Assembly: GCF_028751545.1 (NCBI RefSeq)
Contig: NZ_CP071867.1
Span: 1,957,306-2,021,305, forward strand
Source of the DNA: Gilliamella sp. B3022
GTDB taxonomy: Bacteria; Pseudomonadota; Gammaproteobacteria; Enterobacterales; Orbaceae
Length of the DNA: 64,000 nucleotides
Reading direction: 5' to 3'
Positions 7,781 through 63,735 of this stretch are shown here, one piece after another. Under the pieces are notes generated by a model, which was not told the origin of the DNA, ran no database searches, and saw nothing but the letters and a program-made list of their open reading frames with translations. The position numbers and the translations under genes were made by a program. Numbering within the stretch: position 1 is the first letter of the stretch; each line of letters starts with the position of its first letter.

Positions 7781-7891
7781 GTGATAGTAAAGGATTTGAA
7801 TACCCTTACTCAGATAAATTTCATTGATTACTCCGTCAATAGCATTGGCGGAATTGCTTTTTTAATTGTATTAGATAGACGAATACCAATA

Positions 7892-10183
7892 ATGAAAAAG
7901 TTTTTTAATAAATTATTTATCTTTTTATTGTTATCGTTAGTCGGCGGCTTTTTTGTTGCTGATTTTCTTTTTCCATTATCAATTTCGCAAAATAAAACAA
8001 CACAAACCGTTGTTGCTCAAGATGAAACTCCTTTATGGCGATTTGCTGATGAAAAAGGTATTTGGCGTTATTCGGTAAGCCTTGATGAAGTTCCTGATTA
8101 TTATCTTGATGTATTATTACATTATGAGGATCGTTATTTTTATCATCATATTGGTATTAATCCATTATCGTTATTTCGAGCTGCTTGGCAAAATTTATCG
8201 AGTAATAAAATTATTTCGGGTGGTAGTACCATTTCAATGCAAGTGGCTAGGTTACTTGCTCCTCATGATCGAACTTTGATTGGTAAATTAAAACAAATTT
8301 TTCGGACTTTGCAACTTGAACTCCATTACACTAAACAAGAGATTTTAACTTTATATATTAATCATGCTCCCTATGGGGGAACCATAGAAGGTATTGGTGC
8401 CGCTAGCTGGTCTTATTTTGGTAAACAACCTAAAGCCTTAACTCGAAGTGAGGCAGTATTATTAGCGGTATTGCCTCAAGCTCCAAGTCGATTAAGGCCA
8501 GATCGATTTCCTCGAAGAGCTACGCTAGCTCGTGACAAAATATTAGATAGACTTGCACAGTATGATGTTTGGCCAAAAGAGTTAATTGATCAAATTCGAC
8601 GAGACGAAGTTTGGGTTTATCCACGAAAAACGCCACAGTTAGCCCCATTATTGGCTTATAGATTAAAACAGCAATATCCTAATGATAATACGATTCATTC
8701 CACTATTGATGTTTCTATTCAGTATATTTTAGAAGATCTTGCTATTAATCGAAAACAACAATTACCGCCTAAAACTTCATTAGCAATTTTAGTGGTAGAT
8801 CATGCAGATATGACAGTTAAAGGGTATGTAGGTTCAGCTGACTTTAATGATAAAGAGCGTTTTGGTCAAGTTGATATGATTAGAGCGTTACGATCTCCTG
8901 GTTCAACACTCAAGCCATTCATTTATGCATTTGCTCTCGATGAAGGTATGGTCCATTCTGAATCGTTATTACAAGATGTTCCACGTATTACCTCCGATTA
9001 TCGACCAACTAATTTTGATGAAGGTTTTCATGGACCTGTAAGTGTCTCTGATGCATTAAATCAATCATTAAATTTACCAGCAGTCCAATTGATTGAGTTA
9101 TACGGCCCAAAAAAGTTTGCAGGAAAACTTGCTGGCATTGGTTTACCTTTATTTTCTATTGCCAATGAACCAAATATTTCCTATATATTAGGTGGAGCCT
9201 CGCTTAGGATGGATAACCTTATTAGTGCATACAGTGCATTTGCAAGGCAGGGTAATGTTAGTCCCTTACGATTTACTCAATCCGATCCCTTGATTAATAA
9301 ACCCTTTATCTCTAATGGTAGTGCATGGATTACTCGGCAAATGCTAATGAATAACAATTTATTAGCTTTTAAAACAGGAACCAGTTATGGTTATCGTGAT
9401 GCTTGGGCTGTTGGTATAAATCCTCGATATTTAATTGGTATTTGGGTAGGGCGCCCTGACGGTACTCCTGTTGTTGGGCAGTATGGTTCAATGTCAGCAT
9501 TGCCAATTTTGCAACAAGTTAATTCAATATTATTAAATAGAGAAAGGCGCTTAAATCAACCTCTCCCTGCTTATGAGAAACCTGAATCGGTATCGATTGA
9601 GAAAATTTGTTGGCCATCAGGTCAGCCACTTCCCGATTCAGATGTTAATTGCCATCGTCAAAAAACAGCATGGGTATTAAATAATCTGTTACCACCAACA
9701 TTAAGTACCGTGAGTGAATTAAAAAACAATATTTACCATTCAAGTTGGATAAACATTTGGGTAAATGAACGAGGTAAGCGTGTTGCCGCTGATTGTACAG
9801 GAGCACAAAAAAAAACAATAGCCTTGTGGCCTGTTTCATTAGAAAATTGGTTGTTAACCAAAGAACGAAGACAAGCATTATTGCCTCCCATTGATAAAAA
9901 TTGTCCTGTAATGAATAAAGATATCTTCGCCTCACTTAATATCGTTGGTTTACGGAATAACCAATTGATTAGGGCGTTACCCGGTAATAACCAAGTCACA
10001 ATTGATTTAATTCCTGAAGGTGGATTTGGCGAAAAATGGTGGTTTCTAGATGGAGTTTTAGTCGCTAACTCCAAGGATAATGAAAAAGTTGCTTTAACAG
10101 TAAACAAAAATGGGAAACATCGTTTACTGGTGTTAGACGAAAGTGGACAAATTGTACGAATTAATTTTATTTCAGATGAATAA
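7892..10183 (+). CDS. pbpC: penicillin-binding protein 1C (bifunctional peptidoglycan synthase)
   Basis: Inner-membrane peptidoglycan glycosyltransferase/transpeptidase. From the ATG at 7892 it is 763 residues, close to E. coli PBP1C. An N-terminal TM anchor is followed by the GT51 domain (catalytic Glu79 in EDRYFYHH; STISMQ), then the transpeptidase with Ser338 and Lys341 in SPGSTLKP and KTGT at 494-497, and a C-terminal BiPBP_C domain. The open frame extends upstream to a GTG at 7781 directly after the yfhM stop. Those extra 37 residues are unlike the family and no ribosome site is evident there, so I prefer 7892, although its Shine-Dalgarno is also weak. Confidence 0.93.
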   Translation: MKKFFNKLFIFLLLSLVGGFFVADFLFPLSISQNKTTQTVVAQDETPLWRFADEKGIWRYSVSLDEVPDYYLDVLLHYEDRYFYHHIGINPLSLFRAAWQNLSSNKIISGGSTISMQVARLLAPHDRTLIGKLKQIFRTLQLELHYTKQEILTLYINHAPYGGTIEGIGAASWSYFGKQPKALTRSEAVLLAVLPQAPSRLRPDRFPRRATLARDKILDRLAQYDVWPKELIDQIRRDEVWVYPRKTPQLAPLLAYRLKQQYPNDNTIHSTIDVSIQYILEDLAINRKQQLPPKTSLAILVVDHADMTVKGYVGSADFNDKERFGQVDMIRALRSPGSTLKPFIYAFALDEGMVHSESLLQDVPRITSDYRPTNFDEGFHGPVSVSDALNQSLNLPAVQLIELYGPKKFAGKLAGIGLPLFSIANEPNISYILGGASLRMDNLISAYSAFARQGNVSPLRFTQSDPLINKPFISNGSAWITRQMLMNNNLLAFKTGTSYGYRDAWAVGINPRYLIGIWVGRPDGTPVVGQYGSMSALPILQQVNSILLNRERRLNQPLPAYEKPESVSIEKICWPSGQPLPDSDVNCHRQKTAWVLNNLLPPTLSTVSELKNNIYHSSWINIWVNERGKRVAADCTGAQKKTIALWPVSLENWLLTKERRQALLPPIDKNCPVMNKDIFASLNIVGLRNNQLIRALPGNNQVTIDLIPEGGFGEKWWFLDGVLVANSKDNEKVALTVNKNGKHRLLVLDESGQIVRINFISDE

Positions 10184-37328: not shown

Positions 37329-37837
37329 AAAATACCGCCTTTCTTCATACAATAAATGAAACAGAGTGAATTGGTTGCTAATCAATAACTATCTAATAAA
37401 ATTTAAATTATTTATTAACTGCGTGGTATTCATTTAAATATTTTTGATGAAAAATTAAGCAAAGATAAAAAGAGGATATTAAAAAGCAAAATTGATGTTT
37501 TGTTGATGCATTTTAAATTAACTGAATCTCGACAAAACCATCCCTTTTCATAAAAATTAGGTGCTGATTATAGCAAAATGCCCCAATTATGTAAAATGCA
37601 CACAATTAACAGTTTAATTTTTTTATTAAATTATTAACCTGTATTTATTCATAAACGTTACAGTTAGACAATCATGTAAATGACTGATTGCTAGTCATTT
37701 GGCGATTGAAAAATGATCTATAAAGAAGTATTTTATAGCCTAGCTTAATAATTATGATCAATTGTTTACATCACTAATATGTAGTTCAAAATAGCAAAAT
37801 TGTTTTTGCCGTGCACATGAAATATATCGAGGATAAC
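37329..37837. other. divergent intergenic region between proP and vgrG
   Basis: About 500 bp with no gene. It must hold the promoters of proP (minus) and vgrG (plus). A perfect 8-bp hairpin AAATGACT/AGTCATTT with a 7-nt loop lies at 37678-37700. Composition is very AT-rich, in contrast to the vgrG coding region that follows. Confidence 0.4.
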
Positions 37838-40531
37838 ATGGATAAAGGATTAACCCATCTGATCAATCCATTGGAAAATGGTTTAAGTCATGGTTTAAAA
37901 CATGGATTAAAGCGCAGTCTGAAGAAAGGCACCGCCCATAATCGCTATACCTTAACTGTCGATGGTCAAAGCGCGCCGATTTCGGTTTTACAGGTTGCCG
38001 GCAATGAACAACTTAACCAGCCCTGGCATTACACCATCACCTTTACCAGCCCACATCCACATCTGGATGCGGAATCGTTTCTCAATCAAAAAGCCTGGTT
38101 TCGTTTCAATCCTGTTCATGCCGATTTGACCTCTTTGGCATTGGGTGCCTCAGACTTACTGAACGCCAGCACCCCATTTGATGCATTGCACGAATTAAAA
38201 CCCTCCGAGTCGTCGGTCAATCCTCAAAGCGCGACAGCGCCCTTAAACGGGTTAAAGCAAAACACGCCACTCAATTCATTGAACGCCTTATTCTCACAAG
38301 GTGCATCACGTACGCTCTATGGCGTGATAACCACATTTGGACAGTTATCGGTCAGTCACGACGAGGTCCGCTATCAGGTGGTCTTATCCTCACCATTGGC
38401 AAGACTGGGGTTAAGTCACAATTATGCCATTTTTCAGAAACAAAGCGTGATAAGTGTGGTTGAAGAAGTCCTGCGCAGTCATGGCTATACGGGGGTGGAT
38501 TATCGTCTGGAATTAAACCATCACTATCCGGAGCGAGAATTCATCACGCAATGGCAGGAAAGTGACCTGGCATTCATTCAACGACTGCTGGCGGATGTGG
38601 GGGTGTATTTCCGGTTTGAAACGCATGGCGAGCATCATTGTGATGTGATGGTCATCAGTGATAACGAGCAGGGGTATGGGCAGGCGTCGGATATCCGTTA
38701 CCAACCGCCCAGTGGCACCCTGGATGGTGGACGGGAAAGTGTCTGGGACATCACCTTGCGCAGTCAGGTCGTCGAATCCTCGGTTAAGGTGCAGGATTAT
38801 AACTACCGCGATGCCAACGCCAGTTTCGTTGGTGAAGTCAACAGCCAACCGAAAGACACCACCACTTATGGCACCGATTACCGTTATGATGAGCATTACA
38901 AAGGTCTGACCACACACGGTCAGGCAGAGAAAGACGGGGAAGAGGAAGATAGCAACAACAATAACGACAATAACAACAATTATCACAATAGCAATGACAA
39001 TGACAATGACAAGAGCCATCATAACAGCGACAATCCTTACGACAATGCGGTGGAAAGTGGTAACTGGTATGCGCGAATACGTCATGAACACGCCATCAGT
39101 CAACAAACTATCATCCACGGGAAAAGCAATCATGCCAATCTGACACCGGGTCAACGCATACAGATTAACGGTAGTCCATGGATGGACATTGATGAGGGCG
39201 TCCTAATATTAAGTGTGGAAGGGCAAGGCAACCGCACCGAAGCTTACGAACTGCGTTTTACCGCCATACCGTATCACGCCTTAAAACCTTACCGACCGGC
39301 ACCGCTGCCGGCGCCGACGGTGCACGGCACCCTGCCGGCACGGGTAAGCAGTCCGGATAATGACACTTACGGTTACATTGATACACAGGGTCGTTATCGG
39401 GTTAAATTTAACTTTGACTTAAAAGCGTGGAAAAACGGGGAAGAGAGCCTATGGTTAAGACTGGCCAGACCGTATGCCGGCAGCACCTATGGCATTCACT
39501 TTCCGCTCATTGACGGCACGCAAGTGGCGGTCGCCTTCACCAACGGCAATCCGGACCGACCGTATATCGCCCATGCCCTGCACGACAGTGCGCACCCTGA
39601 CCTGGTGACCACGATAAACAAACACCGCAATGTGATTCGCACCCCCACCAATAACAAACTGCGCATGGAAGACAAACGGGGGCAGGAGCACATCAAGCTG
39701 GCGACCGAATACGGCAAAACGCAACTCAATCTGGGACACTTAGTCAACCAAAAAAAAGCGTTACGGGGTGAAGGGTTTGAACTGCGCACCGATGAATGGG
39801 GGGCGATAGCGGCTGAAAAAGGCTTATACCTGACGACACAAACCGAGCCCAAAGCGCAAGGTCAGCAACTGGATATGCAAGGCGCCATTACCCAGCTGGA
39901 AAATGCCTTATCGATAGCCAAAGCGCTGCAACAGGCTGCCAATCAATGCGACGCACACGGTGCTGACACCGCCAGTCAGGACCAGCTTAAAGCAGCGTTA
40001 ACGACGCTCACTGAAAGTGGCATCTTAGCTTATGCACAGGCAGGCATTGCGTTAACCAGTCCGGAAAATATCCAACTGTCCTCGAGTAACAGTATTTCCT
40101 TAACCAGTGAACACCAAACCGACATCCATGCCCTGAAAAACATCACAGTCACATCCGGTGAAGCCATAGGCTTATTTGCCCACAAATCGGGGATGAAGGT
40201 CTTTGCCAACCAAGGGGATATTGACATACAAGCGCAAAATGCCAACTTGAATATGGCGGCTCAACAAGATATCAAAATCGACAGTGTGGACGGTGAACTC
40301 ACCCTCACAGCAAGCGAAGAGCTGACGTTAATGTGTGGTGGCTCTTTTATCAAAATCAGCCGTGAAGGCATTGAGCTGGGCACAGCGGATAATGTGTATA
40401 TAAAAAGCAATGCTCTGCAAAAAATGGGACCGGCAAGTATTGATAGTGACAAATTAAAATTTACATCCAGTGATATTGATGTAGCACTTATGCGTTTAAT
40501 CAATAGTGATGTTATCAATTTTTCAGGATAA
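37838..40531 (+). CDS. vgrG: type VI secretion tip protein VgrG
   Basis: T6SS spike protein of 897 residues from the ATG at 37838, which has GAGG 5 bp upstream; the frame opens at GTG 37811. The order is a Lys/His-rich N-terminal extension (about 1-30), the gp27-like Rhs/Vgr domain (YTLTVDGQSAPISVLQVAG on), the gp5-like OB fold (GYIDTQGRYRVKFNFDL; WLRLARPYAGSTYGIHF) and a C-terminal DUF2345 beta-helix. An Asn/Asp/His-rich low-complexity insert sits near residues 367-400 (bases 38939-39035). The gene is visibly richer in G and C than its neighbours, suggesting transfer. No T6SS structural genes are in the window, so this is an orphan vgrG module. Confidence 0.95.
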   Translation: MDKGLTHLINPLENGLSHGLKHGLKRSLKKGTAHNRYTLTVDGQSAPISVLQVAGNEQLNQPWHYTITFTSPHPHLDAESFLNQKAWFRFNPVHADLTSLALGASDLLNASTPFDALHELKPSESSVNPQSATAPLNGLKQNTPLNSLNALFSQGASRTLYGVITTFGQLSVSHDEVRYQVVLSSPLARLGLSHNYAIFQKQSVISVVEEVLRSHGYTGVDYRLELNHHYPEREFITQWQESDLAFIQRLLADVGVYFRFETHGEHHCDVMVISDNEQGYGQASDIRYQPPSGTLDGGRESVWDITLRSQVVESSVKVQDYNYRDANASFVGEVNSQPKDTTTYGTDYRYDEHYKGLTTHGQAEKDGEEEDSNNNNDNNNNYHNSNDNDNDKSHHNSDNPYDNAVESGNWYARIRHEHAISQQTIIHGKSNHANLTPGQRIQINGSPWMDIDEGVLILSVEGQGNRTEAYELRFTAIPYHALKPYRPAPLPAPTVHGTLPARVSSPDNDTYGYIDTQGRYRVKFNFDLKAWKNGEESLWLRLARPYAGSTYGIHFPLIDGTQVAVAFTNGNPDRPYIAHALHDSAHPDLVTTINKHRNVIRTPTNNKLRMEDKRGQEHIKLATEYGKTQLNLGHLVNQKKALRGEGFELRTDEWGAIAAEKGLYLTTQTEPKAQGQQLDMQGAITQLENALSIAKALQQAANQCDAHGADTASQDQLKAALTTLTESGILAYAQAGIALTSPENIQLSSSNSISLTSEHQTDIHALKNITVTSGEAIGLFAHKSGMKVFANQGDIDIQAQNANLNMAAQQDIKIDSVDGELTLTASEELTLMCGGSFIKISREGIELGTADNVYIKSNALQKMGPASIDSDKLKFTSSDIDVALMRLINSDVINFSG

Positions 40532-40543
40532 AAGGAATCAACC

Positions 40544-43500
40544 ATGGCATTAGCCCCTATAAAAAAATGGAAATATCCGGTCGTTACCAATGACCCAAAA
40601 AAATCAAGCGCAGCCCGTTATCATCAAGCCTTAATGTTAGCGCAAACCGGTTTTTATCCTGTGAGCGTTAATAAGCTTGTGCATGGAGGCATTCACTTTG
40701 ATGAAGATGTGCTTAAGAATTTAGGCATTGTAAATGATAAACCGAGCAAAGTGTACTGTATAGCAGATGGTGAAGTCATTGCTTATCGGGTTAACGACAA
40801 TTATCAAAAAGTTGATTATGGTGATAAGGTTAGTTTTTTCTCAACCGGTTTTGTTTTAGTTCGTCATCTGCTTGAAATGGAACGAATTGAAGAAGTGGCT
40901 CCGGCAGCGACACCAACTCCAACAACCGAAAGTCAGTCATCACCCGACGCAGCTACCACTAACTCAACTGAAAATTCAACAGCGCCAGCAGCCTATGCAT
41001 TACCGTCGTCAAATACGTCGCCAGCCACGACTACACCGGTAACGACATCACCAACGGGCACAGATACCCATACCCCAACGACAACCGGTGACGCATCAAC
41101 AGCAAGTACACCGCCTGCTACTGAAACGGCTAAACCTAAACAGTCCGGTCACCAGCTGTATTTTTATAGTTTATATATGCATTTGGCTGATACTAAATTT
41201 TACAATGATAACCCAAAAGAGCCTACGCCAGCATTTTGGGAGCAAGATATTTATCGGGTCACTGAAAAAGGTTTAGATTTTGTTGAAGGATTAAATATTC
41301 GAAAGAAGCCTGACTTAAAAAAAGGTGAGATTCTTGCAGTCTTACAAGCGGGCACCAAAGTGGAATTGAATCTTGAGTTACATACCGAAGATTATAAATG
41401 GTATGCGGTGACCTCATTAAAGGAAGGCTATTGTTCAATACCGGTATTAACGCCTTATGAGCATGAAGGAAAGAAGATTATCGGTTGGGTTTTCAATGGA
41501 ACTCAAAAGCAGCTCACGGAATCCGAATTTGATATAAAAGATAAAGATAAAGATAAAAATAAAAATAAAAATTTTGCCAAATCAAAAGGACTGAGAGTCA
41601 GGGATGAAAGTAAAAAAAACATACTGTCTATGTTACCCAAGGGAACCCAAGTAAAAATAAGCGGTAAGAAAAAACCTAAAACGTTTGTTGAATTAGCCCA
41701 GATAGTCCGTGACGGGCAACCGACCATTCCTTTATCAGAAGGAAAAAAACTCGTATGGAGCGATAATCTTGAAAACATCACCCGAGGAAAAGAATATAAT
41801 CAGGTAGTGGTATTAGATAAACCGTATCCAATCAAAGCCGGTGATTTAGTGGGGCATATTGGTCATAATCAAAATAAAGGCATCAGCAAACAAAAAGATA
41901 AAGACGGTAATTATATAGAGATGGCGACTTTACCGCTAAAAACAGGTTTAACAGCAAGTCAATATAAACCAAGTTTACATGTTGAATGCTTTACTTGTGA
42001 CGATTTGCCGACGTTCATCACCCAAACGCAGACAGAGGCAGGTAAAATACCCGATGAAGATAAAACATTGGTTGGCATATCAAAAGGTGCAAAATTACTG
42101 GCGTCAGCATCAGAATCGGATACAAAAGTCGGTGAGTGCCTTAAAGGTTCGGAAATAAAAATATTAAGTAAAGAACGGAATATCAACTGGTTCCAAATAG
42201 AGATTCAAACATCGAAAAGTGAAACTAAAACATTATGGATAGAGAATAATAAAGAGATACAGGATAAACTAAAAGAAAAAGGTAATCTAAAAGATTTAGC
42301 CAGTACCACAAAGGCATGGAGCAAGTTTCCATTACAACAGAGTGAGTTAACAACCAGTAAAAAAGAAGTCGATACACCACCGTTGCTACTGAATTTAAAT
42401 GATGAAGATTTAATCAAGAATGATAAACGAGCCATGGATGAAAAGGGGACATTATGGTTATGGATAGAGCATGCAGTGGATAGTCAAAATGTTCCTATCA
42501 AAGGATGGACATTTATTGGCAGTGAGGGCGTGAAGAAAGTCAGTGGTTGGGAGTGGTTTGGTTTTAAACAGATTACAGAAACTGGCAGTTTAAAAGAGTT
42601 TTACCTGAGTGCGAAAAAATCAGAAACCCGAAACAAAGATAATGCTTCACTGGAGAACTATAAGCCAACCCTCAAAGAGACCTTAACAATATTAGATAAG
42701 CAATACATTCAAAATAGTAATAAATATGCAACATTAACACAGGGATGTTTTAAAGGGATATCCGAAAAACCACACTTAACAACGGCACTGGGACGGCTGT
42801 TAGTAAATTATCAAAGTGAATGGTATGAAGAGCTGGATGCAGAAGGAAAGCGACCGGAATGGGAAGCATTAAACAGTGAAATGACTGGTGATGCGGAAAA
42901 CTATTTGGGTTATATAAAAGACGGCGATGAAGCAAAACGTGATGCATATGTTAGTAAGATGGACGCAAGCAAACAAGAATCAATAAAACAAGGCTTAGAA
43001 CAACAAAGAAGAGACTATGAGCGTTTTCCAGCAGATTATAAAGATGCACCCGACAAGAAATTAGCACAAGAGCAACTTAAATTATTGGGCATAATAAATG
43101 GGTTAGAAGATAAGTATAAATTATGGGAAAAAACCAAAGAAAAAGCGACAAAAATGCTGTGGTGGGACGATGTAGTCGAAGGATTAGCTAAGCAAAGTCA
43201 ACAGACAGAACAAAGTGACACTGAAACAGAAAAAGATAAAACAGAAGACAGCTCAAAGCAACAAACCGAAACATCATCAACGCCAGCCACGTTAAGCCAA
43301 AACGGTGAGGTTTGGTTTATGCATCCTGTGGCTATGGTGGATTATTTTAATATTGTTGAAATAAAAAAAGGCTGGGCAGAAAGCCCATTTGCTTTGCTGT
43401 TAGGTGAAGTTGAATCCAATAATGATTATTCAGCTTATAATCAAACTAAACCAAAACTAAGAGCTTTTTTTAATACTAACTTAACCTCTATGACGCTAAA

Positions 43501-43906
43501 GGAATTAATTGATAAACAAGCAAAAGGGGAAATATTTGCTGCTGGACGCTTTCAAATAATTCCTGAAACTTTAAAATCAGCTCTAGATTATTTAAAATTA
43601 GACTTATCATTGAAATATAATAAAGAAACACAAGATATTTTATTTGAAGAATATTTGATAAAAATTAAAAGGAAGAACATAATAAAATATTTAGAACAGG
43701 ATGGTGATGTTGAAGATGCTATTTATGATTGGGCTAAAGAATTTGCATCAGCAGGAGTACGTAAAGGGAAAACAATAAGTAATGGAAGAATTGCAGCTTT
43801 TGAAGGTTCATCATATTATCAAGGAGATGGGCTAAATTCTGCCCATATATTACCAGCTCAAATGGTTGAAGCATTAAAAGAATCGAAAAATGGAAATTGG
43901 AGGTAA
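40544..43906 (+). CDS. VgrG-linked candidate T6SS effector: degenerate M23-like fold, SH3-like repeats, C-terminal lysozyme-like domain
   Basis: 1120 residues, 12 bp after vgrG with AAAAGGA before the ATG. Residues 1-500 contain pieces of an M23 metallopeptidase fold in order: HGGIHFD (47-53), ADGEVIAY, YSLYMHL (His213), a GDLVGHIGHNQ turn, and SLHVECF (His479). The usual HxH reads SLH, so zinc binding is doubtful. A Thr/Pro-rich linker (about 118-200) and three SH3b-like units (near 249, 349 and 515) interrupt or follow it. The C-terminal 190 residues resemble lambda-endolysin-type lytic transglycosylases: GEVESNND (Glu955/Glu957) and AAGRFQIIP (Gly1001). Position suggests delivery by VgrG and attack on peptidoglycan. 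A secreted candidate immunity gene follows. Confidence 0.75.
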   Translation: MALAPIKKWKYPVVTNDPKKSSAARYHQALMLAQTGFYPVSVNKLVHGGIHFDEDVLKNLGIVNDKPSKVYCIADGEVIAYRVNDNYQKVDYGDKVSFFSTGFVLVRHLLEMERIEEVAPAATPTPTTESQSSPDAATTNSTENSTAPAAYALPSSNTSPATTTPVTTSPTGTDTHTPTTTGDASTASTPPATETAKPKQSGHQLYFYSLYMHLADTKFYNDNPKEPTPAFWEQDIYRVTEKGLDFVEGLNIRKKPDLKKGEILAVLQAGTKVELNLELHTEDYKWYAVTSLKEGYCSIPVLTPYEHEGKKIIGWVFNGTQKQLTESEFDIKDKDKDKNKNKNFAKSKGLRVRDESKKNILSMLPKGTQVKISGKKKPKTFVELAQIVRDGQPTIPLSEGKKLVWSDNLENITRGKEYNQVVVLDKPYPIKAGDLVGHIGHNQNKGISKQKDKDGNYIEMATLPLKTGLTASQYKPSLHVECFTCDDLPTFITQTQTEAGKIPDEDKTLVGISKGAKLLASASESDTKVGECLKGSEIKILSKERNINWFQIEIQTSKSETKTLWIENNKEIQDKLKEKGNLKDLASTTKAWSKFPLQQSELTTSKKEVDTPPLLLNLNDEDLIKNDKRAMDEKGTLWLWIEHAVDSQNVPIKGWTFIGSEGVKKVSGWEWFGFKQITETGSLKEFYLSAKKSETRNKDNASLENYKPTLKETLTILDKQYIQNSNKYATLTQGCFKGISEKPHLTTALGRLLVNYQSEWYEELDAEGKRPEWEALNSEMTGDAENYLGYIKDGDEAKRDAYVSKMDASKQESIKQGLEQQRRDYERFPADYKDAPDKKLAQEQLKLLGIINGLEDKYKLWEKTKEKATKMLWWDDVVEGLAKQSQQTEQSDTETEKDKTEDSSKQQTETSSTPATLSQNGEVWFMHPVAMVDYFNIVEIKKGWAESPFALLLGEVESNNDYSAYNQTKPKLRAFFNTNLTSMTLKELIDKQAKGEIFAAGRFQIIPETLKSALDYLKLDLSLKYNKETQDILFEEYLIKIKRKNIIKYLEQDGDVEDAIYDWAKEFASAGVRKGKTISNGRIAAFEGSSYYQGDGLNSAHILPAQMVEALKESKNGNWR
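41540..41572 (+). repeat. in-frame hexanucleotide tract in the effector gene
   Basis: Three GATAAA units followed by AATAAA units encode an alternating Asp/Asn-Lys stretch between the first and second SH3-like units. Copy number could change by slippage in 6-bp steps without breaking the frame. Confidence 0.7.
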
Positions 43907-43908
43907 AT

Positions 43909-44337
43909 ATGAAAAAGTTAAAGTTTGCTCTTCTGTGTTTCATAATATTTGCAATTAATTATTCCTTAATAGCTCAAGCTCAAAGTAAAGAACTTATCAA
44001 ATTAGATTTTAACGATTTCGCTATTAAAACTAAAACAAAAATTAAAAATGCAAACTTTGCGTATCATTATTTGATTAAGGTTTATGGGTGTGGTGGTGGT
44101 GCAATTTGTGGAGAGATTCGAAACTTACTCTCTAACAAAGTTATTGGACTTCCTAATGCTTATTTGATAGAAGATGAAAATGGAGAAAATGGGTTTTCTA
44201 TAGAATATCATTTAAATAGTAGTTTAATTATTATTTCTGGAATAATAGCGGATCCTGATGAAAATGAAGCTAACGAAGGATATAGAAGAAGATATTATAA
44301 TTTCATAAATGAAAAGTTTGAGCTTTTAGAAAAATAA
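43909..44337 (+). CDS. candidate periplasmic immunity protein
   Basis: 142 residues from the ATG at 43909, whose GGAGG ribosome site (43899-43903) lies in the last codons of the effector gene; the starts and stops are 2 bp apart, so translation is coupled. A Sec signal peptide (1-24, AQA cleavage) exports it to the periplasm, where a wall-degrading effector acts. The mature part has a GCGGGAICG loop (Cys61, Cys67, possible disulfide) and an acidic C-terminal half (DENGENG; DPDENEANEG). I do not recognise the family with certainty. The immunity role is inferred from position, export and coupling. Confidence 0.65.
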   Translation: MKKLKFALLCFIIFAINYSLIAQAQSKELIKLDFNDFAIKTKTKIKNANFAYHYLIKVYGCGGGAICGEIRNLLSNKVIGLPNAYLIEDENGENGFSIEYHLNSSLIIISGIIADPDENEANEGYRRRYYNFINEKFELLEK

Positions 44338-53416: not shown

Positions 53417-55504
53417 TTAATTAGGAATAATCAATTCCCCATTTTCTTTCTTGATTATATCGTTACTGTTAGGCGTTTGTAATATAGGTACTAAATTTTG
53501 GGCAGTGGCATCGGGCGTGAATGCAATTTTTCCTACACGGGGCATAGCATGAATTACCTGACTGTCAGGTAATGTTGCCTTATTGGTTAAATTTGCCCAC
53601 AACCACTCCATTGCATCCTCTCCATAATAGTCAATTGAGACAAGTGAATTATCAAATGGCGGTTTGCCTTCTAAATAACTACTATTTTCTACTTCAATGT
53701 AACGTAATTGTGAATTGATGCCTTCTACTTGACTGTTTAAGGCCACGTAAGCACGAGATGTATAATCCGGTAGCTGTTTTACATTGTTACGACCATGGAT
53801 AATAAATGTTTTGATTCCATTTAAATTGGCTGAGGCGACAACTTGTTTCATACCGAAAACAACTCTAGGATCTTTTAATTTTTCATACAAACAAATTGCC
53901 CCTTTACTGTTGTAGTCAATTTCATTTTTATTATCAGAACTTGAATAGAAATCTCGTCTTGGCGAATGAATGTCTTCATTGTTGACGAGTGCTAATAGGG
54001 TTGATTCATTTCCTAGCCATATTGGTAGATGTCCATCTGCCCATCCCCAAAGTTGCTGGAAATCTGTTTCTGATAAAGGTTCAACTTTACCTGTATAAAG
54101 AAGTGGATTTTTTTGGGTGCTTGCAACCGAATAATCACACATTCTTTCGGTAACGTCAAAATGACCATAGGCGCTAATATATTGATAAGGTAGCCCTATT
54201 GTTTCTTTATAATAATAATAGGGAAGTTGTCTCTCCATTTCTGGTGTCCAGCCATATTGACGCAGTTTTTCAAGCGCTTCTTTAGGGGTTCCATAAATGA
54301 GTAATTGTGCTTTTTTTAAGGCATTACAACGATTTTTCGCATAAGTGTAATTATCAGCAAAAGGTATATTCATATCTTTATTTTCACTGATTATTGCTGG
54401 AACAGCACAAGGTATATACAGTGATGCATAAGTACTATATTCCGCTATTGAAAGATATTCAATTCTTGCAGATGGTTTTTCACCAACTTTAACGTTTACA
54501 GGTATCGTTTCAGAGTAAGGTGAGATTTGAGGATTAACTGCCACAATACCTTTTATTGTATTATTTTTGTCTAACTCTCCAGCTTTTAGAGCGGCTCCTC
54601 CGCCATCAGTTGCGCCATAAACTAATACTAACGTATTGTCTTTATCGAATATCACCTTTTTAGTAGGGGAATAGTGAGAGTTGATTTGGTAAAAAGCAAA
54701 TTCAATGGATTTTAAAACAAATTCCCCCCAACGTTCTTCGGAGTTTTGTTTTGAGTGCAGTTGTTTTATTGCATAGCGGTTAGGGTAGGTTTTTACATAG
54801 TGCTTTCGATTTTCGATATTAGGTTTAAATAATAAGTTATTTGTTTGCACTTTGCCATTAATCGCAAATCCCCGTTGATGCGTTATATCATAAATACCAT
54901 TACCCAACCCTTTATCATTATAAACGACGGCACAGTTATGACGAAGGCCCCATAATCCCCGAATTTGTATATCATATGCATTGAATAAACCATCTGAATT
55001 TGTTGATGGTACGGCAACAATACACGGTTTATTTTTATCAAAATCCAATGGGATTTGTACTAATAGCCCTACACTTTCTTCATTATTTTTATAGGTGGCT
55101 AATATTTCAGTACCTGCTATTTTACCATCAAATAATTGGGTAAGATTTTTTCTTTGAAAACCAAAAAGTGACCCTTCTCCAGTTTTGATATCAATAAAAC
55201 GATTTAATTTTAATTGTCTGAGTTCTTGTAGGGTAGGTTGAGCAGGATGAGCTACTGTCGGTTTAATCACGATTGTTGATAAAGGCGTGAATCCCAAACC
55301 TGCTGTTACTAAGTCATCGCTATCCCCGTCATAGTAAGTAGAACTTTCTATTGTTATCCCAGCCGGATATTGGATGAGATTCATCTCTTCACGAGATATA
55401 CTTAATCGTAGATCACTTTTAGCTTGAACTGCAAAAGGAAGGATAGCGGAGGTAAAACACATTAACGATACCAATGCTTTTATTTTTATATTTTTAATTC
55501 TCAT
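53417..55504 (-). CDS. 3-hydroxybutyrate oligomer hydrolase-like secreted protein
   Basis: 695 residues with a signal peptide (AVQA-KS). Overall layout and motifs match the D-(-)-3-hydroxybutyrate oligomer hydrolase family (GLGFTPL; PCIVAVPSTNSDGLFNAYDIQIRGLWGLRHNCAVVYNDKG). In the family as I remember it, the nucleophile lies in a SVSNGGG segment. Here the aligned segment is GATDGGGAALKAGE, with Thr299 at the serine position. Either the nucleophile is Thr, it lies elsewhere, or the protein is no longer this esterase. AAAGGAA before ATG 55504 supports the start over 55528. No PHB genes are nearby. Confidence 0.75.
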   Translation of the reverse strand: MRIKNIKIKALVSLMCFTSAILPFAVQAKSDLRLSISREEMNLIQYPAGITIESSTYYDGDSDDLVTAGLGFTPLSTIVIKPTVAHPAQPTLQELRQLKLNRFIDIKTGEGSLFGFQRKNLTQLFDGKIAGTEILATYKNNEESVGLLVQIPLDFDKNKPCIVAVPSTNSDGLFNAYDIQIRGLWGLRHNCAVVYNDKGLGNGIYDITHQRGFAINGKVQTNNLLFKPNIENRKHYVKTYPNRYAIKQLHSKQNSEERWGEFVLKSIEFAFYQINSHYSPTKKVIFDKDNTLVLVYGATDGGGAALKAGELDKNNTIKGIVAVNPQISPYSETIPVNVKVGEKPSARIEYLSIAEYSTYASLYIPCAVPAIISENKDMNIPFADNYTYAKNRCNALKKAQLLIYGTPKEALEKLRQYGWTPEMERQLPYYYYKETIGLPYQYISAYGHFDVTERMCDYSVASTQKNPLLYTGKVEPLSETDFQQLWGWADGHLPIWLGNESTLLALVNNEDIHSPRRDFYSSSDNKNEIDYNSKGAICLYEKLKDPRVVFGMKQVVASANLNGIKTFIIHGRNNVKQLPDYTSRAYVALNSQVEGINSQLRYIEVENSSYLEGKPPFDNSLVSIDYYGEDAMEWLWANLTNKATLPDSQVIHAMPRVGKIAFTPDATAQNLVPILQTPNSNDIIKKENGELIIPN

Positions 55505-55633
55505 TGCAAGTATTTCCTTTCTTAACAACCAAATTATTTTAGATAGGACTATCCTGATATTTTTTAGGTTGTTATAAATAATATTATCTTTATTTTTTGA
55601 ACGATGAATGAATATTATATTTTATTTTTTTGA

Positions 55634-58370: not shown

Positions 58371-58397
58371 AAGAGCTGGTTTACCAGCTCTTATGCT
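58371..58397. terminator. hairpin terminator between convergent prfC and the polysaccharide operon
   Basis: Stem AAGAGCTGG (58371-58379) with CCAGCTCTT (58384-58392), loop TTTA, followed on the plus strand by ATGCTTTA. A stable short hairpin; the T-tract is weak. It could serve both converging transcripts. Confidence 0.65.
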
Positions 58398-58418: not shown

Positions 58419-59717
58419 TTATAAAGCAAGACCATGTAAGGCGATGCCGTCAAAAGAATTCCATTGAGTTAAGTCATTTCCCAGTAAATCTACCGTTTGA
58501 AATAATTTATCTTCGTCCCCCATAAAACTGATGTCTCTACTTCCTGCTCTAGGCGACAATGGCGAGGAGTAAGTATAAGTGTTACTATCGATATGCAGTT
58601 TATCTTTATTGAGTAAAATAAACTCTTTATCATTAAATTCGGCTTTTTCTAGCTCGTCACTGGTCAAAATTGGAATGTAAAAATTCTCAACTCCATCATC
58701 AAGTAGGCTATTTTCAAGCGCAATCATGATTTTTTGTTCGTTTTCATCTCCCCATATTAACCATTTCGCACTTATATTATAGATTTGAGTATAATCGGTA
58801 CGATAAGCCATAATAGTATATCTTGAAATGTAGGATTGAATACTCTGTACGATTTGTTCACCATTGTCGATATAAAGTAACCAAAAAGGGATAACAATCT
58901 CGATTTTATCGCCCCATGACTGACTGAGCATTTTTATGGCATTATGCCAAAGTTTCCAAATATAATCGGGATCTTGATTGTAGTCATCTAACACATAAGG
59001 TTCGATGTCATATTGAATACCTGCAAGACAGGGTTTGTCTTCACGCATAGAACAAAACTGTTTAATGATTTTATTGCGTTCAATAGCATTTCTTAATCCT
59101 GAATCAATGACCATATCCGGTGAGCCTTCAACTGCAATAATTTTTATCTGATTTTCATAGGCAATATCGAGCAATTGATTTAATTGTTCTTTATATTTTA
59201 TGTTTTCATTTTCAATTGCTAGTTGTAGATAGATTTGATTGATGCCTTTTGCTCTTATTTGGTTGATAAACTGTTCGGGAGAAGTATCCCAAGTACGAGT
59301 TTCCCAGTTCCACATTCCAAGATTGATTAATTTTTTTGTAATTATTTCCTCATTGGTCACGGGAAGTTGGGTATTTACTGTTTGATTGTCAAAGAGATCA
59401 TCGTCAGTTTGTATCAAATCGGGCGTTTCATCCATATTGGTTGGTTTAATTACACTGTCGTTATTATAACCAGATAATACGTTATCGAAATTTTGTTCTT
59501 GTTTAGAGGAAACTGAGTTTAATATTCCGTTTTTAGTTTCACTAAAAATCGTTTTTTTCTCACACGGATGCAAATCATCATTTGCTTGCATCCATAAAGC
59601 GTTATAAGTACCGTTTTGAGTTGTACCTACAAAACGATCAGCAGCAAAAGAAGAATGAATCATAAAAGCTATGATAAATAATAAGATAAATCGTATTGTA
59701 GCGGCATTATTTGTCAA
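58419..59717 (-). CDS. secreted TIM-barrel-like protein, putative polysaccharide hydrolase
   Basis: 432 residues with a signal peptide (HSSFA-AD). A spacer rich in Asn and Asp precedes a C-terminal domain of about 290 residues that looks like a glycosidase barrel: GMWNWETRTWD, KIIAVEGSPDMVID, GIQYDIEPYVLDD (Asp237, Glu239 at a strand end, as in DxE-type glycosidases), IEIVIPFWLLY and YTIMAYRTDY. No named family is certain. The start is TTG: no in-frame ATG occurs until residue 19, a GAAAGGG site lies at the right distance, and the start overlaps the synthase stop by 11 bp. It is last in a four-gene polysaccharide operon, so trimming or cleaving the polymer in the periplasm is plausible. Confidence 0.65.
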   Translation of the reverse strand: MTNNAATIRFILLFIIAFMIHSSFAADRFVGTTQNGTYNALWMQANDDLHPCEKKTIFSETKNGILNSVSSKQEQNFDNVLSGYNNDSVIKPTNMDETPDLIQTDDDLFDNQTVNTQLPVTNEEIITKKLINLGMWNWETRTWDTSPEQFINQIRAKGINQIYLQLAIENENIKYKEQLNQLLDIAYENQIKIIAVEGSPDMVIDSGLRNAIERNKIIKQFCSMREDKPCLAGIQYDIEPYVLDDYNQDPDYIWKLWHNAIKMLSQSWGDKIEIVIPFWLLYIDNGEQIVQSIQSYISRYTIMAYRTDYTQIYNISAKWLIWGDENEQKIMIALENSLLDDGVENFYIPILTSDELEKAEFNDKEFILLNKDKLHIDSNTYTYSSPLSPRAGSRDISFMGDEDKLFQTVDLLGNDLTQWNSFDGIALHGLAL

Positions 59718-61134
59718 ATTTGACCCTTTCCATTTTTCCCCAAGTAATTTTACCTTTCTTTAATCGAAGAAACCCTCTGATTTTCCAATACAAACAAATT
59801 TGTCGATAACCGAAATTTTCCAGAAAAGAGATTAAAAAAAGGGACATCAAATATTTTACTTTATCTAATCCTTTAAGTAATAATCCATCAATAGAAATGG
59901 CGACAGAACTAATAAATATATTGTAACAAATGACTAACAAAAAGTAGGACAATATTATATTACCGTTTACAATCTGAAGATACCAAAAAAGCGGCAATAG
60001 CACGTAACCTAAGAGCTCAGACAACGGTCCGATAATATCGGTCAGTATTGAAAAAGGTAAAATTAAAAAACTTACCCTACTGTATTTTATATTAAAAATT
60101 AAGTTTTGGAAATGAAAAAATGTTTGCAAAGCGCCAATATGCCAGCGAATACGCTGATTTTGTAAAACTCTCCATTTTTCAGGTACCTGTGTCCAACAAA
60201 TGGCAGTAGGTACATATTTAATTTTATAATCCACCTTTGAATCATAAATGTATTTATGTAATTTTACCGTAAAGTCATAGTCTTCACCTACCGAACCAAC
60301 AGAAAAACCGCCAATACGAATAGCAAAATCCCGACGAAATAAGCCAAAAGCACCGGATATAATTGGTAATGCACTAATATGATTCCATGCAACTTTTGCC
60401 ATTAAAAAAGATCGCATATATTCAATTATCTGTAATAGAACAATGTATTTTTGAGATAAGTTAATTTTTTTCACTAAACCATTTTTGATCAAACAACTAT
60501 TAGCAACACGTACAGTTCCTCCAACTGCGATGGTTTTCGGATCATCAATAAAGGGAACCATAGCATTTGTAAGGGCATCAGGTGCTAAAATTGAATCCGC
60601 ATCTAAAAGGCAAATAATGGGTGAACGGCTTAAATTAATCGCGGCATTATGTGCATCAGCCTTGCCACCATTCACTTTATCGATAACGCGTAACCGACTA
60701 TCTTTGCGAGAAATATAAACCCCTTTTATTTTAGCGTGCGAAAGTAGATTGGGATTATTAGTATTGAGATTGTGTAATGTTCTTTCTAAGTTGAAAAATT
60801 GATTAATTAACTCAAAAGTATCGTCGGTTGATCCATCATTGACTACTATTACATCTGCATTGGGATAATCGGATGCAAGGATGGACTTTATACTTTCAAT
60901 TATGGTAATACTTTCATTATAAGCGGGCATAATAATCGTAATTGGATGCAACATACCGTCATTTTTTTGTATGCTTTGTATTTTTCTTTCTTTGTGCGGA
61001 TTATCAAAAAATACATATAACGCTATGATAAGTTGTATAAAGTAAATGAAAATTTGTAACAATCCAATAAACATAATAAAATAAACTGTTACTTGCAGTG
61101 TAGAAATTAAAGCATCGTGTAGATAACTACTCAT
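59707..61134 (-). CDS. processive family 2 glycosyltransferase (exopolysaccharide synthase)
   Basis: 475 residues. N-terminal TM helices precede a cytoplasmic GT-A domain with DGSTDDT, the DxD motif DADS (Asp178, Asp180), ED in GEDYD (Glu284, Asp285) and QRIRW (Gln327-Trp331), the QxxRW signature of processive synthases such as PgaC and BcsA. Several C-terminal TM helices follow. The ATG at 61134 overlaps the preceding stop as ATGA; the frame extends to 61146. It lacks a PilZ domain. The polymer is not predictable; poly-hexosamine or beta-glucan are candidates. Confidence 0.88.
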   Translation of the reverse strand: MSSYLHDALISTLQVTVYFIMFIGLLQIFIYFIQLIIALYVFFDNPHKERKIQSIQKNDGMLHPITIIMPAYNESITIIESIKSILASDYPNADVIVVNDGSTDDTFELINQFFNLERTLHNLNTNNPNLLSHAKIKGVYISRKDSRLRVIDKVNGGKADAHNAAINLSRSPIICLLDADSILAPDALTNAMVPFIDDPKTIAVGGTVRVANSCLIKNGLVKKINLSQKYIVLLQIIEYMRSFLMAKVAWNHISALPIISGAFGLFRRDFAIRIGGFSVGSVGEDYDFTVKLHKYIYDSKVDYKIKYVPTAICWTQVPEKWRVLQNQRIRWHIGALQTFFHFQNLIFNIKYSRVSFLILPFSILTDIIGPLSELLGYVLLPLFWYLQIVNGNIILSYFLLVICYNIFISSVAISIDGLLLKGLDKVKYLMSLFLISFLENFGYRQICLYWKIRGFLRLKKGKITWGKMERVKFDK

Positions 61135-62072
61135 AATGTTGCCCATACCTGATTTTTATAAATACCATTATTGCTATCAGCCCAATAAACAAATAATTTA
61201 GTATCAAAATTAAAATTATTTGTTATGAGTTCCTGAATACTGCATATTTTTTCTTGATAACAAAGTTCATTAATAAAATTTAAAATGTAACAACTGTGAA
61301 TTATTCCTGATGCTTTACATTGCAAACTGAGTAATGTTTCAAATAATTGTTGCATGTAATCTCGTTGATCTTCTCTGGCAAACATAACGTAAGGAGTGAT
61401 GTAGTTATTGGAAATTTCCCTTAACATGGTTTGTAGCGTACCATCAAAATTTCTTGATTCTTCATCAATGACTTGAGATTCAAATTGTAATAAGTTATAC
61501 GATGGAATAAGGCGGAGAAAACAAAATAATCCTTTTTGTGGTATGGAATTAAACAGTTTAGTAATGAGTTCAACTAATGATACATTAGGATCACTGACCA
61601 CTAAGCTTAATGCTGCAGCGATAGCGACTTCTTGACGACGATCTAAACAAGCTCTTTCTAATGCACTAAATGATTTTTGGCATGGATAATAAGACAACAT
61701 ATTGGCAGCTTCAATACGTTGTTGAACCGTTCCTTTTAGTAAAAGTAAACGTAATTTTTTTTGGAACGTTTCTTCCGCAAAAAAAGGAAGAAATTTTTGC
61801 AATTCATAGCGCTGTCTTTTGGCAAAAAAAGAGACAATAAGTATAAGTGAACCTGACGATAATGTTTTATCAACGGTATTTTTAAAAATAATATGATTAT
61901 TTTGTTTAATACTTTTGTTGTAAGCGGTGATTAAGGTTAATTTTAATTTGTTATAGTGACGGCGTTGTTTTCTTCTTTTACAGTAAATTATTGATGTTAT
62001 GATTATCACAATGCAACCCAACAGCACCAAACTACCATTATAAATATTGATGTAACGTATTAAAATATCCAT
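61131..62072 (-). CDS. membrane-anchored HEAT-repeat protein
   Basis: 313 residues: one N-terminal TM helix (about 14-30), a very basic juxtamembrane stretch (CKRRKQRRHYNKLK), then helical HEAT/PBS-lyase-like repeats (IEAANMLSYYPCQKSFSALERACLDRRQEVAIAAALSLVVSDP). The start overlaps the barrel-protein stop by 13 bp and the end overlaps the synthase start by 4 bp, so expression is tightly coupled to both. By position it may play the accessory role that small subunits (PgaD, BcsB) have in other systems. That is inference; no such homology is visible. Confidence 0.7.
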   Translation of the reverse strand: MDILIRYINIYNGSLVLLGCIVIIITSIIYCKRRKQRRHYNKLKLTLITAYNKSIKQNNHIIFKNTVDKTLSSGSLILIVSFFAKRQRYELQKFLPFFAEETFQKKLRLLLLKGTVQQRIEAANMLSYYPCQKSFSALERACLDRRQEVAIAAALSLVVSDPNVSLVELITKLFNSIPQKGLFCFLRLIPSYNLLQFESQVIDEESRNFDGTLQTMLREISNNYITPYVMFAREDQRDYMQQLFETLLSLQCKASGIIHSCYILNFINELCYQEKICSIQELITNNFNFDTKLFVYWADSNNGIYKNQVWATL

Positions 62073-63250
62073 TTTATTCCGCAGCCTAAAGTTTTTTTGT
62101 TATATAATTTACGGTTATGGGTCGTTTCTTTACGATCTTCGTCAGTATAGTTGAGGTTTAAGGTAACAATTTCAGTAATATCATAAGAGAGGCCAACAAA
62201 ACGAGCAGTTACTTTAATTAACGAACGAGTCAAATTGCTTGATCGATCTGATGTTTCTTGGGAATTGGAATAGCCTGCAAATAAGCGGAGTTTTTCCGTA
62301 GGAGAAGCGGCTATTTTAACTAAAAAACCACTCATATGTTTATTATCTTGATCAAAGGTATTATTCCATTTTCCAGATAAAGAAAGTCGTTCACCAAAAA
62401 AATATTGAGTTATACCTGGATCAATACTTTTTATGTTGCCATCATTGTAATGATCAAGCTTCAAATCTAAAGTAACATGAAAAGAGTTAACATCATCATT
62501 TATCGAATTAAATAAGGTGTAATCGATTCCATTTATCAATGTGTATTTAGCAAATAATTTATTTGAGGAAGAGACAAATCCTGTTAAATAACCATACGCT
62601 TTATTGTTGAACGTATGCCATAGTGTCCCTCCATACTTTTGATCGTTCATATGAAAACGATGGGATTGTGCGAAGTAACCCGTAATGGTATCTGTTTTGG
62701 ATAATTTATAAGATAGAGCCATCTCCATTTCGTTCCAATCAGCGTAAGATTTTGATAAATGGCTATGAGTACCACCTAAATTAAACTCCCAATTGTGTAT
62801 AGAATTTTTTACAGCTTCGATACTTTTGCTAATTGTTAATAACTGAATATCGTTAGGTGATTGCTCTAAATATTGATTGAGCAGTTTTTCCGCTTTGTTA
62901 GGGTCATCAGGATTTTGCGCTAGAATAACGCTAACCAGGCCATATTGTGCATCAATATAATCAGGCGTAATGGATAAAGCGTCTTGAAATGATTGTTTGG
63001 CTTGATCTAATTTGCCTAAAGCATAATAATTGAAGCCCAATTGGACCAAAATATCAGAATTAGTTGGTGATAGTTCATAGGCAAGTTGCAATTTTGACAA
63101 TGAAAGGTCGTAATTCTGAAACTTTTTAGCTTCTATACTCTCTTTTAACAGTTGATCGGCTTTAACTGCATTATCAAAATCGTTGGTGTTGGCTATCACT
63201 GAGGAACTATAAGTTAAGATACTAATTATTAAGACTATTTTACAGAACAT
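62060..63250 (-). CDS. TPR protein with YaiO-type outer-membrane beta-barrel
   Basis: 396 residues from ATG 63250, where AAGG is well placed; the frame opens at 63310. A signal peptide (VIANT) is followed by about three TPR units (LSLSKLQLAYELSPTNSDILVQLGFNYYALGKLDQAKQSFQDALSITPD) and then a C-terminal half of alternating amphipathic strands ending in a final aromatic (CGIKWIF), as outer-membrane barrels do. The architecture parallels PgaA/YaiO export proteins. It is first in the operon and probably the outer-membrane exit for the polymer. Confidence 0.78.
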   Translation of the reverse strand: MFCKIVLIISILTYSSSVIANTNDFDNAVKADQLLKESIEAKKFQNYDLSLSKLQLAYELSPTNSDILVQLGFNYYALGKLDQAKQSFQDALSITPDYIDAQYGLVSVILAQNPDDPNKAEKLLNQYLEQSPNDIQLLTISKSIEAVKNSIHNWEFNLGGTHSHLSKSYADWNEMEMALSYKLSKTDTITGYFAQSHRFHMNDQKYGGTLWHTFNNKAYGYLTGFVSSSNKLFAKYTLINGIDYTLFNSINDDVNSFHVTLDLKLDHYNDGNIKSIDPGITQYFFGERLSLSGKWNNTFDQDNKHMSGFLVKIAASPTEKLRLFAGYSNSQETSDRSSNLTRSLIKVTARFVGLSYDITEIVTLNLNYTDEDRKETTHNRKLYNKKTLGCGIKWIF

Positions 63251-63735
63251 ATAAAACCTTAATCCATTATATTCTTGCTTGGTATTTTGTGTGTAAGTAC
63301 TTGTTACCAATTAATATACTGCTAGTCTGACCATAATTTGGCAGAATTAAATTAAGGAGTATTTAGATACAAATGAACGAAATACTCCCTTCCTTTTTGA
63401 ATCAATGCATTTTCGATAAAAATCTAAACTACTTTGAATCAATTGCAGCTACTAACTAATAGTGTTAATTTGAACTGATTCTGATACCGATAAGAACGTA
63501 TCATTTTTGTGAAATAAAATGGTAAACAATTTATAACATTACTGAACTGACCGTATTATGGTTGAGATTACTTATTCAACAGTAGTGATTGAATTATAGT
63601 ATTCTTTTTAGACAAAAGAAATTTGACCTTCGTTAATTTTTGTTAAGAAATTTTAACGTGCAAATAATGTGTGTTTCTCTCCCTAATTGCTTAAAAAAAG
63701 ACTATAATATTATTTTTTTGTTAGGCGAAGATTAT
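63251..63735. other. divergent intergenic region between the polysaccharide operon and ptrA
   Basis: About 485 bp with no gene. It must carry the promoters for the operon (minus) and ptrA (plus), but I cannot pick convincing ones. It is AT-rich with short inverted repeats only (for example CGTTAA/TTAACG around 63630-63658). Confidence 0.35.

Follow-up and report, generated by a model that had tools for sequence, protein, structure and literature searches.

According to the passages of a survey that define synthase-dependent exopolysaccharides (PMC7112194), bacteria possess five such systems, in which a subunit that binds cyclic di-GMP (c-di-GMP) is typical; the words HEAT and YaiO do not occur in its main text. 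The Pga/Hms system of E. coli (pgaABCD) combines a barrel exporter bearing tetratricopeptide repeats (TPRs), a glycosyltransferase of family 2 (GT2) as synthase and a periplasmic hydrolase domain, and the Bcs system of E. coli has a processive GT2, a TPR exporter and a hydrolase (BcsZ). The E. coli yaiO-yaiP-yaiS cluster places a YaiO-family barrel beside a GT2. In NfrBA-YbcH, also of E. coli, a GT2 with DxD, TED and QxxRW motifs is accompanied by a TPR-containing outer-membrane barrel and one accessory protein, and an N-acetylated sugar (N-acetylmannosamine, ManNAc) has been proposed in the sections of PMC8669469 devoted to it. The passages on xagABCD (Xag) of Xanthomonas present it as a putative glycosyltransferase-based operon for a biofilm polysaccharide (PMC3609779, PMC4643136, PMC3826837, PMC3633832, PMC3528676). 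Here we describe an operon of four overlapping minus-strand open reading frames (ORFs) in a 64,000-nucleotide stretch (the window) of the 2.6 Mb, single-contig genome of Gilliamella sp. B3022 (family Orbaceae). We consider it likely that these genes specify a compact synthase-dependent exopolysaccharide system with a HEAT-repeat subunit.

The first gene of the operon (62060-63250, minus strand) encodes 396 aa with a signal-peptide-like start, in which family scans recognized TPRs and a YaiO-family outer-membrane barrel, the predicted export pore. It is followed by the gene for a 313-aa HEAT-like protein (61131-62072, minus strand), the proposed partner of the synthase; by that for the predicted processive-type GT2 polysaccharide synthase (59707-61134 or 61146, minus strand; 475 or 479 aa), whose start codon is more likely at 61134 than at 61146; and by a TTG-initiated gene for a 432-aa secreted putative glycoside hydrolase with a TIM-barrel-like pattern of strands (58419-59717, minus strand), referred to below as the fourth protein. 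The original prediction had listed four minus-strand genes of these kinds with overlaps of 13, 4 and 11 bp. ORFs, family scans and profile comparison confirmed the genes, and the ORF coordinates reproduced the overlaps, that between the HEAT and GT2 genes growing to 16 bp with the upstream ATG. In the seven genomes of the genus that carry the operon, the ATG at 63250 was aligned throughout (7/7), with the ORF list placing this start 20 codons earlier at a TTG. The overlap of the GT2 and fourth genes was 11 bp in 6/7 genomes and 17 bp in one, and that of the HEAT and GT2 genes was not general, since in four genomes a gap separates these two genes, of 5 bp in three and of 21 bp in the other.

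The GT2 matched PF13641 and PF00535 and, as predicted from the sequence, carries DxD, ED and QxxRW motifs; together with predicted membrane helices, these make it a candidate for the inner-membrane polysaccharide synthase that such systems share. It belongs to what we define here as the HEAT-linked GT2 class, in which a HEAT gene lies directly upstream of a GT2 of this group. In 34 aligned HEAT-linked rows, DxD was found in 34/34, ED in 32/34 and QxxRW in 33/34, the exceptions being an interrupted Devosia row and, for ED, Legionella. On the Devosia plasmid (L033, 6001-7437) the GT2 is annotated in two pieces, and two of the motifs were not found in the matched frame. In a GT2 tree, a branch with support 97/99 set the 34 HEAT-linked rows apart from E. 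coli PgaC, BcsA and YaiP and from three GT2s without HEAT partners; because the E. coli, Legionella and Planococcus rows form long branches and several Gilliamella rows deviate in composition, exact placements are unsure. The Gilliamella synthases stand on a long stem among rows that, where named, belong to Alphaproteobacteria (support 94/99, short of the level that the tool stars), and this position suggests horizontal acquisition. The G+C content of the four genes (0.300-0.337 vs. 0.352 for the window) is slightly poorer and decides nothing.

The evidence for a HEAT-repeat accessory subunit, as originally proposed, comes largely from relatives. The gene directly upstream of the GT2 matched Pfam HEAT_2 in 24/24 distant loci (9 from plasmids, 12 from a phylum sample and 3 reached via the fourth protein), all chosen by position and spanning Proteobacteria, Deinococcus, Bacteroidota, Bacillota and one haloarchaeon. 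The window protein itself matched no HEAT model of Pfam or NCBIfam. Its HEAT nature was recognized by profile comparison (hhalign) with the HEAT proteins of the related distant loci, at 95% probability and E 3.8e-8, against 0.2% for a reversed control; taken together, these matches identify a conserved partner. The protein begins with a single predicted N-terminal membrane helix, after which a strongly basic stretch can be read in the sequence, and by the positive-inside rule the basic residues after the helix would place the HEAT part in the cytosol. The same arrangement recurred among the 24 distant rows, of which 19 have a helix within the first 70 residues and 17 of these 19 have more K+R after it than before; of the rest, three have a later segment and two have no membrane segment. 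A contig search with the window HEAT protein returned a single confirmed locus, in Gilliamella sp. wkB112.

The exporter assignment rests on scores of 87.3 bits for TIGR04390 (cut-off 32) and 42.1 for PF19413 (cut-off 23.9), in addition to the TPRs. TPRs and barrel are part of a single protein, the predicted pore expected of a synthase-dependent system; despite the TIGR04390 score above cut-off, no significant similarity emerged when E. coli YaiO by itself was compared directly. Among exporter candidates of related loci, 19/22 scanned contained a YaiO domain, the window included. The exporter alignment leaves out L039, L072, L084, L092, L096 and L097, and the exporters of L033, L036 and L037 were chosen by eye rather than by position. 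In one phylum-sample genome (G401; L072/L085) the YaiO gene lies downstream of the GT2 (PF19413, 90.6 bits). Haloarchaea and Planococcus, which have no outer membrane, possess the HEAT-GT2 pair, and the annotation of the stretches shown lists no YaiO gene; this points to the pairing of HEAT protein and synthase.

The small size of the YaiO barrel (the TIGR04390 model has 230 positions), for which pore function is only predicted, would also fit a machine for glycolipids or glycoconjugates, in which the GT2 adds one or a few sugars to a lipid or the cell surface and YaiO acts as an anchor or modifier instead of a pore; sulfatase-family and LTA-synthase-family genes, which accompany the core in two related loci (G401 and Emticicia), are in keeping with this. 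The near-universal QxxRW motif of processive GT2s argues for a polymer instead, as do the fusion of TPRs to the barrel, seen in other polymer exporters, and the co-occurrence of a secreted hydrolase-like protein. We regard a glycoconjugate machine as improbable, and a polymer exporter remains the preferred interpretation of the YaiO protein.

The fourth protein may be a periplasmic modifying enzyme, with a predicted secreted, hydrolase-like character and an invariant DxE. It matched no Pfam or NCBIfam family above cut-off (MupG_N, at E 0.006, fell below), and PDB searches and a Pfam scan of all its members returned nothing significant. The best PDB row, a putative GH97 protein (E 0.026, profile positions 216-279), is a lead only. 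An alignment of 13 homologues, seven from Gilliamella, contains 16 invariant residues, including D237, E239, M303, Y305 and R306; D237-x-E239 is thus conserved in 13/13 and E335 in 12/13. Eight hydrophobic strands can be traced, with D-x-E at the fourth, and the protein looks like a (beta/alpha)8 glycosidase. The D-x-E motif recalls GH18-type substrate-assisted enzymes that act on N-acetylated sugars.

Although rare, the fourth protein is tied to the synthase. It was found in 3/295 genomes of an order sample, all of the genus, and in 3/398 genomes of a Pseudomonadota sample (our own, G337 and G401), all three among the 13 that have the synthase (Fisher p 0.0008 without our own). Two further orders added G896 and G867 (3/296, including G337) and G1006 (2/151, including G401). 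In these five distant genomes (5/5) the synthase gene lies 1.8-6.2 kb from the fourth gene, and on the sole plasmid with the fourth protein among 72,556 records, from Devosia, the distance is 3.1 kb; all 6/6 distant loci with the gene therefore have a synthase within about 6 kb. The G401 and G1006 proteins are divergent (E about 1e-10).

Parts of similar kinds raise the possibility that the operon is a degenerate poly-GlcNAc (Pga/Hms) operon, with YaiO as PgaA, the GT2 as PgaC, the fourth protein as the hydrolase half of PgaB and the HEAT protein replacing PgaD. Among NCBIfam models PgaC_IcaA matched the GT2 best (E 2.5e-43), the TPR part has a weak PgaA match, and deacetylase genes occur in two related loci. 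The scores, however, fall well short of those models, at 148.6 vs. a PgaC cut-off of 422.3 for the GT2 and 21.0 vs. 366.65 for the barrel protein. E. coli PgaC lies across the 97/99 branch, in a tree where the E. coli rows form long branches, and shares 25.5% identity in the aligned region; hhalign gave the fourth protein a 0.6% probability of relation to PgaB. The HEAT partner found in every one of the 24 relatives points to an old, separate lineage. A degenerate Pga operon is a little less probable to us than the glycoconjugate machine, and a separate synthase-dependent system with a HEAT subunit is favored over both.

Other comparisons led in the same direction. The original prediction noted a parallel with Pga- and Bcs-type gene sets, and the operon does look like a synthase-dependent exopolysaccharide system. 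Within the genus the synthase is always accompanied by the full four-gene set, and the fourth gene accompanies it in the six distant loci as well. It also stated that PilZ, a PgaB-type deacetylase and BcsB are lacking, and family scans found no match to any of them in the four proteins. For Pga, no PgaD or deacetylase match and no similarity to PgaB were found, a HEAT subunit being present instead; neither a PgaC equivalog score, nor a place on the PgaC side of the tree, nor PgaB deacetylase and hydrolase was found. For Bcs, the PilZ and BcsB matches are missing, the CelA model scored 64.6 vs. a cut-off of 699.1 bits, and BcsA lies across the branch. The cluster is likewise not the characterized yaiO-linked operon, the possibility of which had been raised. 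It shares the YaiO barrel, but the E. coli operon has a deacetylase (YaiS) and an acyltransferase with no HEAT gene annotated, and its YaiP, which the 97/99 branch separates from the HEAT-linked rows, shares 26% identity along part of its sequence. Because a defining feature of each was tested and not found, the operon is a variant of synthase-dependent exopolysaccharide systems that is not of the Pga, Bcs or yaiO type. HEAT is absent from the main text of PMC8669469, which in its passages on NfrBA-YbcH describes no hydrolase. In the sections on Xag no HEAT protein is named as a component (PMC3609779, PMC4643136, PMC3826837, PMC3633832, PMC3528676); the comparison with Xag covers descriptions, not sequences, and a relation is possible.

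No description of the YaiO-HEAT-GT2 combination was found in the open-licence PMC literature, among the matches listed, which agrees with the initial view of a poorly described system; one may exist elsewhere. Where PMC12419801, PMC10434189 and PMC7383365 mention HEAT or YaiO, the subjects are beta-catenin, a Bacteroides gene list and barrel models. The core belongs to a widespread class, apparently not described before, in which the synthase is paired with a HEAT-repeat protein.

How widespread was assessed at several scales. A tblastn search with the GT2 matched 245 of the 72,556 plasmid records, 45 with at least 80% query coverage, and 15 records were inspected, drawn from 40 of the matches listed. 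Twelve of these loci are HEAT-linked, at 31-42% GT2 identity (Mesorhizobium, Devosia, Erythrobacter, Paenibacillus, Bacteroides, Emticicia, Deinococcus, Haloarcula, Legionella, Planococcus, Halosolutus and Salinirubellus), the HEAT call coming from annotation in ten and from Pfam in Paenibacillus and Emticicia. In the other three (Prevotella, Sphingobium and Sulfitobacter) the GT2s are 26-30% identical, the proteins measure about 1100 aa, and no HEAT gene is annotated in the stretch. A GT2 at E <= 1e-60 was present in 13 of the 398 sampled Pseudomonadota genomes, our own among the 13; up to four GT2 candidates and up to three fourth-protein candidates were scored per genome, and absences are not strict. 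Gilliamella inhabits the bee gut, and the system had been put forward as a possible biofilm or capsule machine of gut symbionts. The assignment to gut symbionts was not supported, as the core also occurs in soil, marine and halophilic bacteria and in archaea, and within the genus it is confined to 7/35 genomes.

Closer to home, the synthase was present in 7/44 genomes of the family, our own included, all of them in this genus (35 genomes), at 68-100% identity. At E <= 0.001, 26/44 genomes gave a match; 19 of these had only short GT2-domain matches and were not counted as this synthase. The original prediction was open to refutation if the genes did not co-occur, and in 7/7 synthase genomes the same four genes were found in the same order between prfC and an M16-peptidase gene. 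In one draft genome (G033), which has two M16-peptidase copies, the adjoining prfC piece is partial; in the six measurable genomes prfC and the peptidase gene are 4.96-5.41 kb apart. Among the 37 genomes without the operon, this spacing is 105-686 bp in 29 and 1.7-2.4 kb in six; in G017 the two genes are on separate contigs, and G035 has no M16 match. Four such gaps were examined. Three (G031, G039 and G001) hold no trace of the operon. The fourth, from the close relative G015 (prfC 98% and peptidase 92% identical), holds a 386-aa frame of the fourth gene that is 67% identical (L098, 734-1894) and has no recognizable signal peptide; no YaiO, HEAT or GT2 was found in this gap, nor any GT2 match elsewhere in the G015 genome. 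The variable gap and the G015 remnant show that the operon is an optional module at one chromosomal site, and that at least one loss removed its three core genes.

The patchy occurrence in 7/35 genomes, and the solitary, signal-less fourth gene of a genome without a GT2, are also what would be expected of an acquisition that is decaying and non-functional in Gilliamella. We think this very unlikely, the least probable of the alternatives considered, as all four frames are free of internal stops in 7/7 genomes while GT2 identity to the window across the genus is 68-91%.

As to regulation, neither a c-di-GMP-binding regulatory domain nor a co-polymerase of that kind was recognized, with no PilZ or similar domain in the four proteins and no GGDEF domain in the six operon-bearing Gilliamella genomes searched (0/6), for which a control was positive in 8/14 genomes, E. 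coli included. Distant loci suggest a different input. A receiver-domain gene was detected in 20/27 of them and in 0/7 Gilliamella loci, using a profile built here from seven annotated receivers of the searched loci; these seven match by construction, which leaves 13/20 for the other loci. Eighteen of the 20 matches lie in an open frame of less than 200 aa, about one domain; in L082 the stretch ends before the frame does, and L096 has a long open frame, although the gene annotated there counts 124 codons with its stop. The receiver and HEAT genes overlap in two haloarchaea. This arrangement suggests direct phosphorelay control of the synthase in relatives. No stand-alone CheY-like receiver was seen in the six Gilliamella genomes, in which all listed receiver matches lie in frames of at least 218 aa; neither the GGDEF nor the receiver search included G033 (59% complete). 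With no GGDEF domain and no receiver gene, the Gilliamella version seems to be without both inputs.

Gene content, order and co-occurrence, motifs, the phylogenetic separation of the synthases, and the lack of a detectable GGDEF domain and of a receiver gene in the locus were all computed, and from them we infer how the system may work. The GT2 would polymerize a nucleotide sugar at the inner membrane and pass the chain across. The HEAT protein, with its one-helix anchor and cytosolic repeats, would be a dedicated synthase subunit in contact with the GT2, taking the place of the c-di-GMP-binding co-polymerases or regulatory subunits of known systems. Export would take place via the TPR/YaiO barrel, and trimming or release of the chain, in the periplasm or outside, may be the task of the secreted hydrolase-like protein. 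In most relatives examined, a receiver probably conveys a phosphorelay signal to the synthase by way of the HEAT protein, and in the receiver-less Gilliamella control is probably exerted by expression.

A more ambitious version of this model, which we put forward as possible but doubtful, is that bacteria and haloarchaea share a polysaccharide-synthase class whose obligate subunit is a HEAT solenoid anchored in the membrane rather than a receptor for c-di-GMP. A CheY-like receiver would dock on the solenoid so that a phosphorelay switches synthesis at the enzyme, and the Gilliamella version would be stripped of both allosteric inputs and fitted with a hydrolase of an unrecognized family. If real, such a further class, present in bacteria as well as archaea and equipped with a HEAT subunit and, in many cases, a receiver, would add a second regulatory logic to the making of surface polymers. 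The operon of Gilliamella offers a practical model. It consists of four genes, the genomes searched gave no sign of a GGDEF domain, a named isolate among the relatives (wkB112) carries all four genes, and the operon is naturally present or absent at a single chromosomal site.

The polymer is most likely composed of N-acetylhexosamines, to judge from the PgaC_IcaA model, from the polysaccharide deacetylase genes that adjoin the fourth gene in G337 and G896 (selected ORFs scanned), and from glmS and a sugar nucleotidyltransferase gene that follow the HEAT-GT2 pair in Halosolutus.

Several observations weigh against the interpretation developed here. The GT2 falls far below the cut-off of its best model, and the annotation of the Legionella and Deinococcus stretches includes no amino-sugar gene. 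The stretch of Legionella adelaidensis has sugar dehydrogenase and epimerase genes suggesting uronic acids, and different lineages may therefore make different polymers; the sulfatase-family enzymes that accompany the core in G401 and Emticicia likewise speak against a single polymer. The hhalign match of the window HEAT protein, which has none in Pfam, spans the first repeat pair only, and its C-terminal half may therefore not be HEAT. Three of the 22 exporter candidates have no YaiO match, and the fourth protein has neither a glycoside hydrolase family above cut-off nor a relation to PgaB. Finally, 7/27 distant loci have no receiver gene, including Paenibacillus with its strong HEAT_2 match, and receiver control thus cannot be the general role of the HEAT protein. 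The idea that the C-terminal HEAT repeats serve solely for receiver binding was weakened by Paenibacillus, which keeps the repeats with no receiver gene found in its locus.

Noncoding signals around the operon were also sought. A short inverted repeat, AAGAGCTGG-TAAA-CCAGCTCTT, was read from the sequence between the operon and prfC (58371-58392, no strand assigned) and is a possible shared terminator; it is absent from the output of a terminator scan, and promoter and terminator scans gave counts close to shuffled expectation. No Rfam RNA, riboswitches included, was found in the operon or its leader up to E 1. A leader palindrome, TGATAC-N10-GTATCA (63482-63503), was dropped, being imperfect in the closest relative (L041) and missing from the other five genomes.

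Additional genes in the window and in related loci deserve mention. On the minus strand at 53417-55528, a 703-aa protein of the 3-hydroxybutyrate-oligomer hydrolase family (PF10605) is encoded beside a LysR regulator, and both are also found beside prfC in five operon-bearing relatives (L041, L042, L044, L045 and L046). On the Planococcus plasmid (L092), CotH-kinase and DUF4956 genes lie upstream of the HEAT-GT2 pair, and an annotated QatC of the Qat anti-phage system is a few genes away. At 2708-10183 (plus strand) the window has a bacterial alpha-2-macroglobulin gene followed directly by one for a bifunctional penicillin-binding protein (PbpC-like). At 37811-43906 (plus strand) a VgrG-type type VI secretion spike gene precedes the gene for a 1120-aa protein in which a bacterial SH3 domain alone was recognized, and a 146-aa ORF (43897-44337) overlaps the end of the latter; the region looks like a spike with its cargo and a possible immunity gene.

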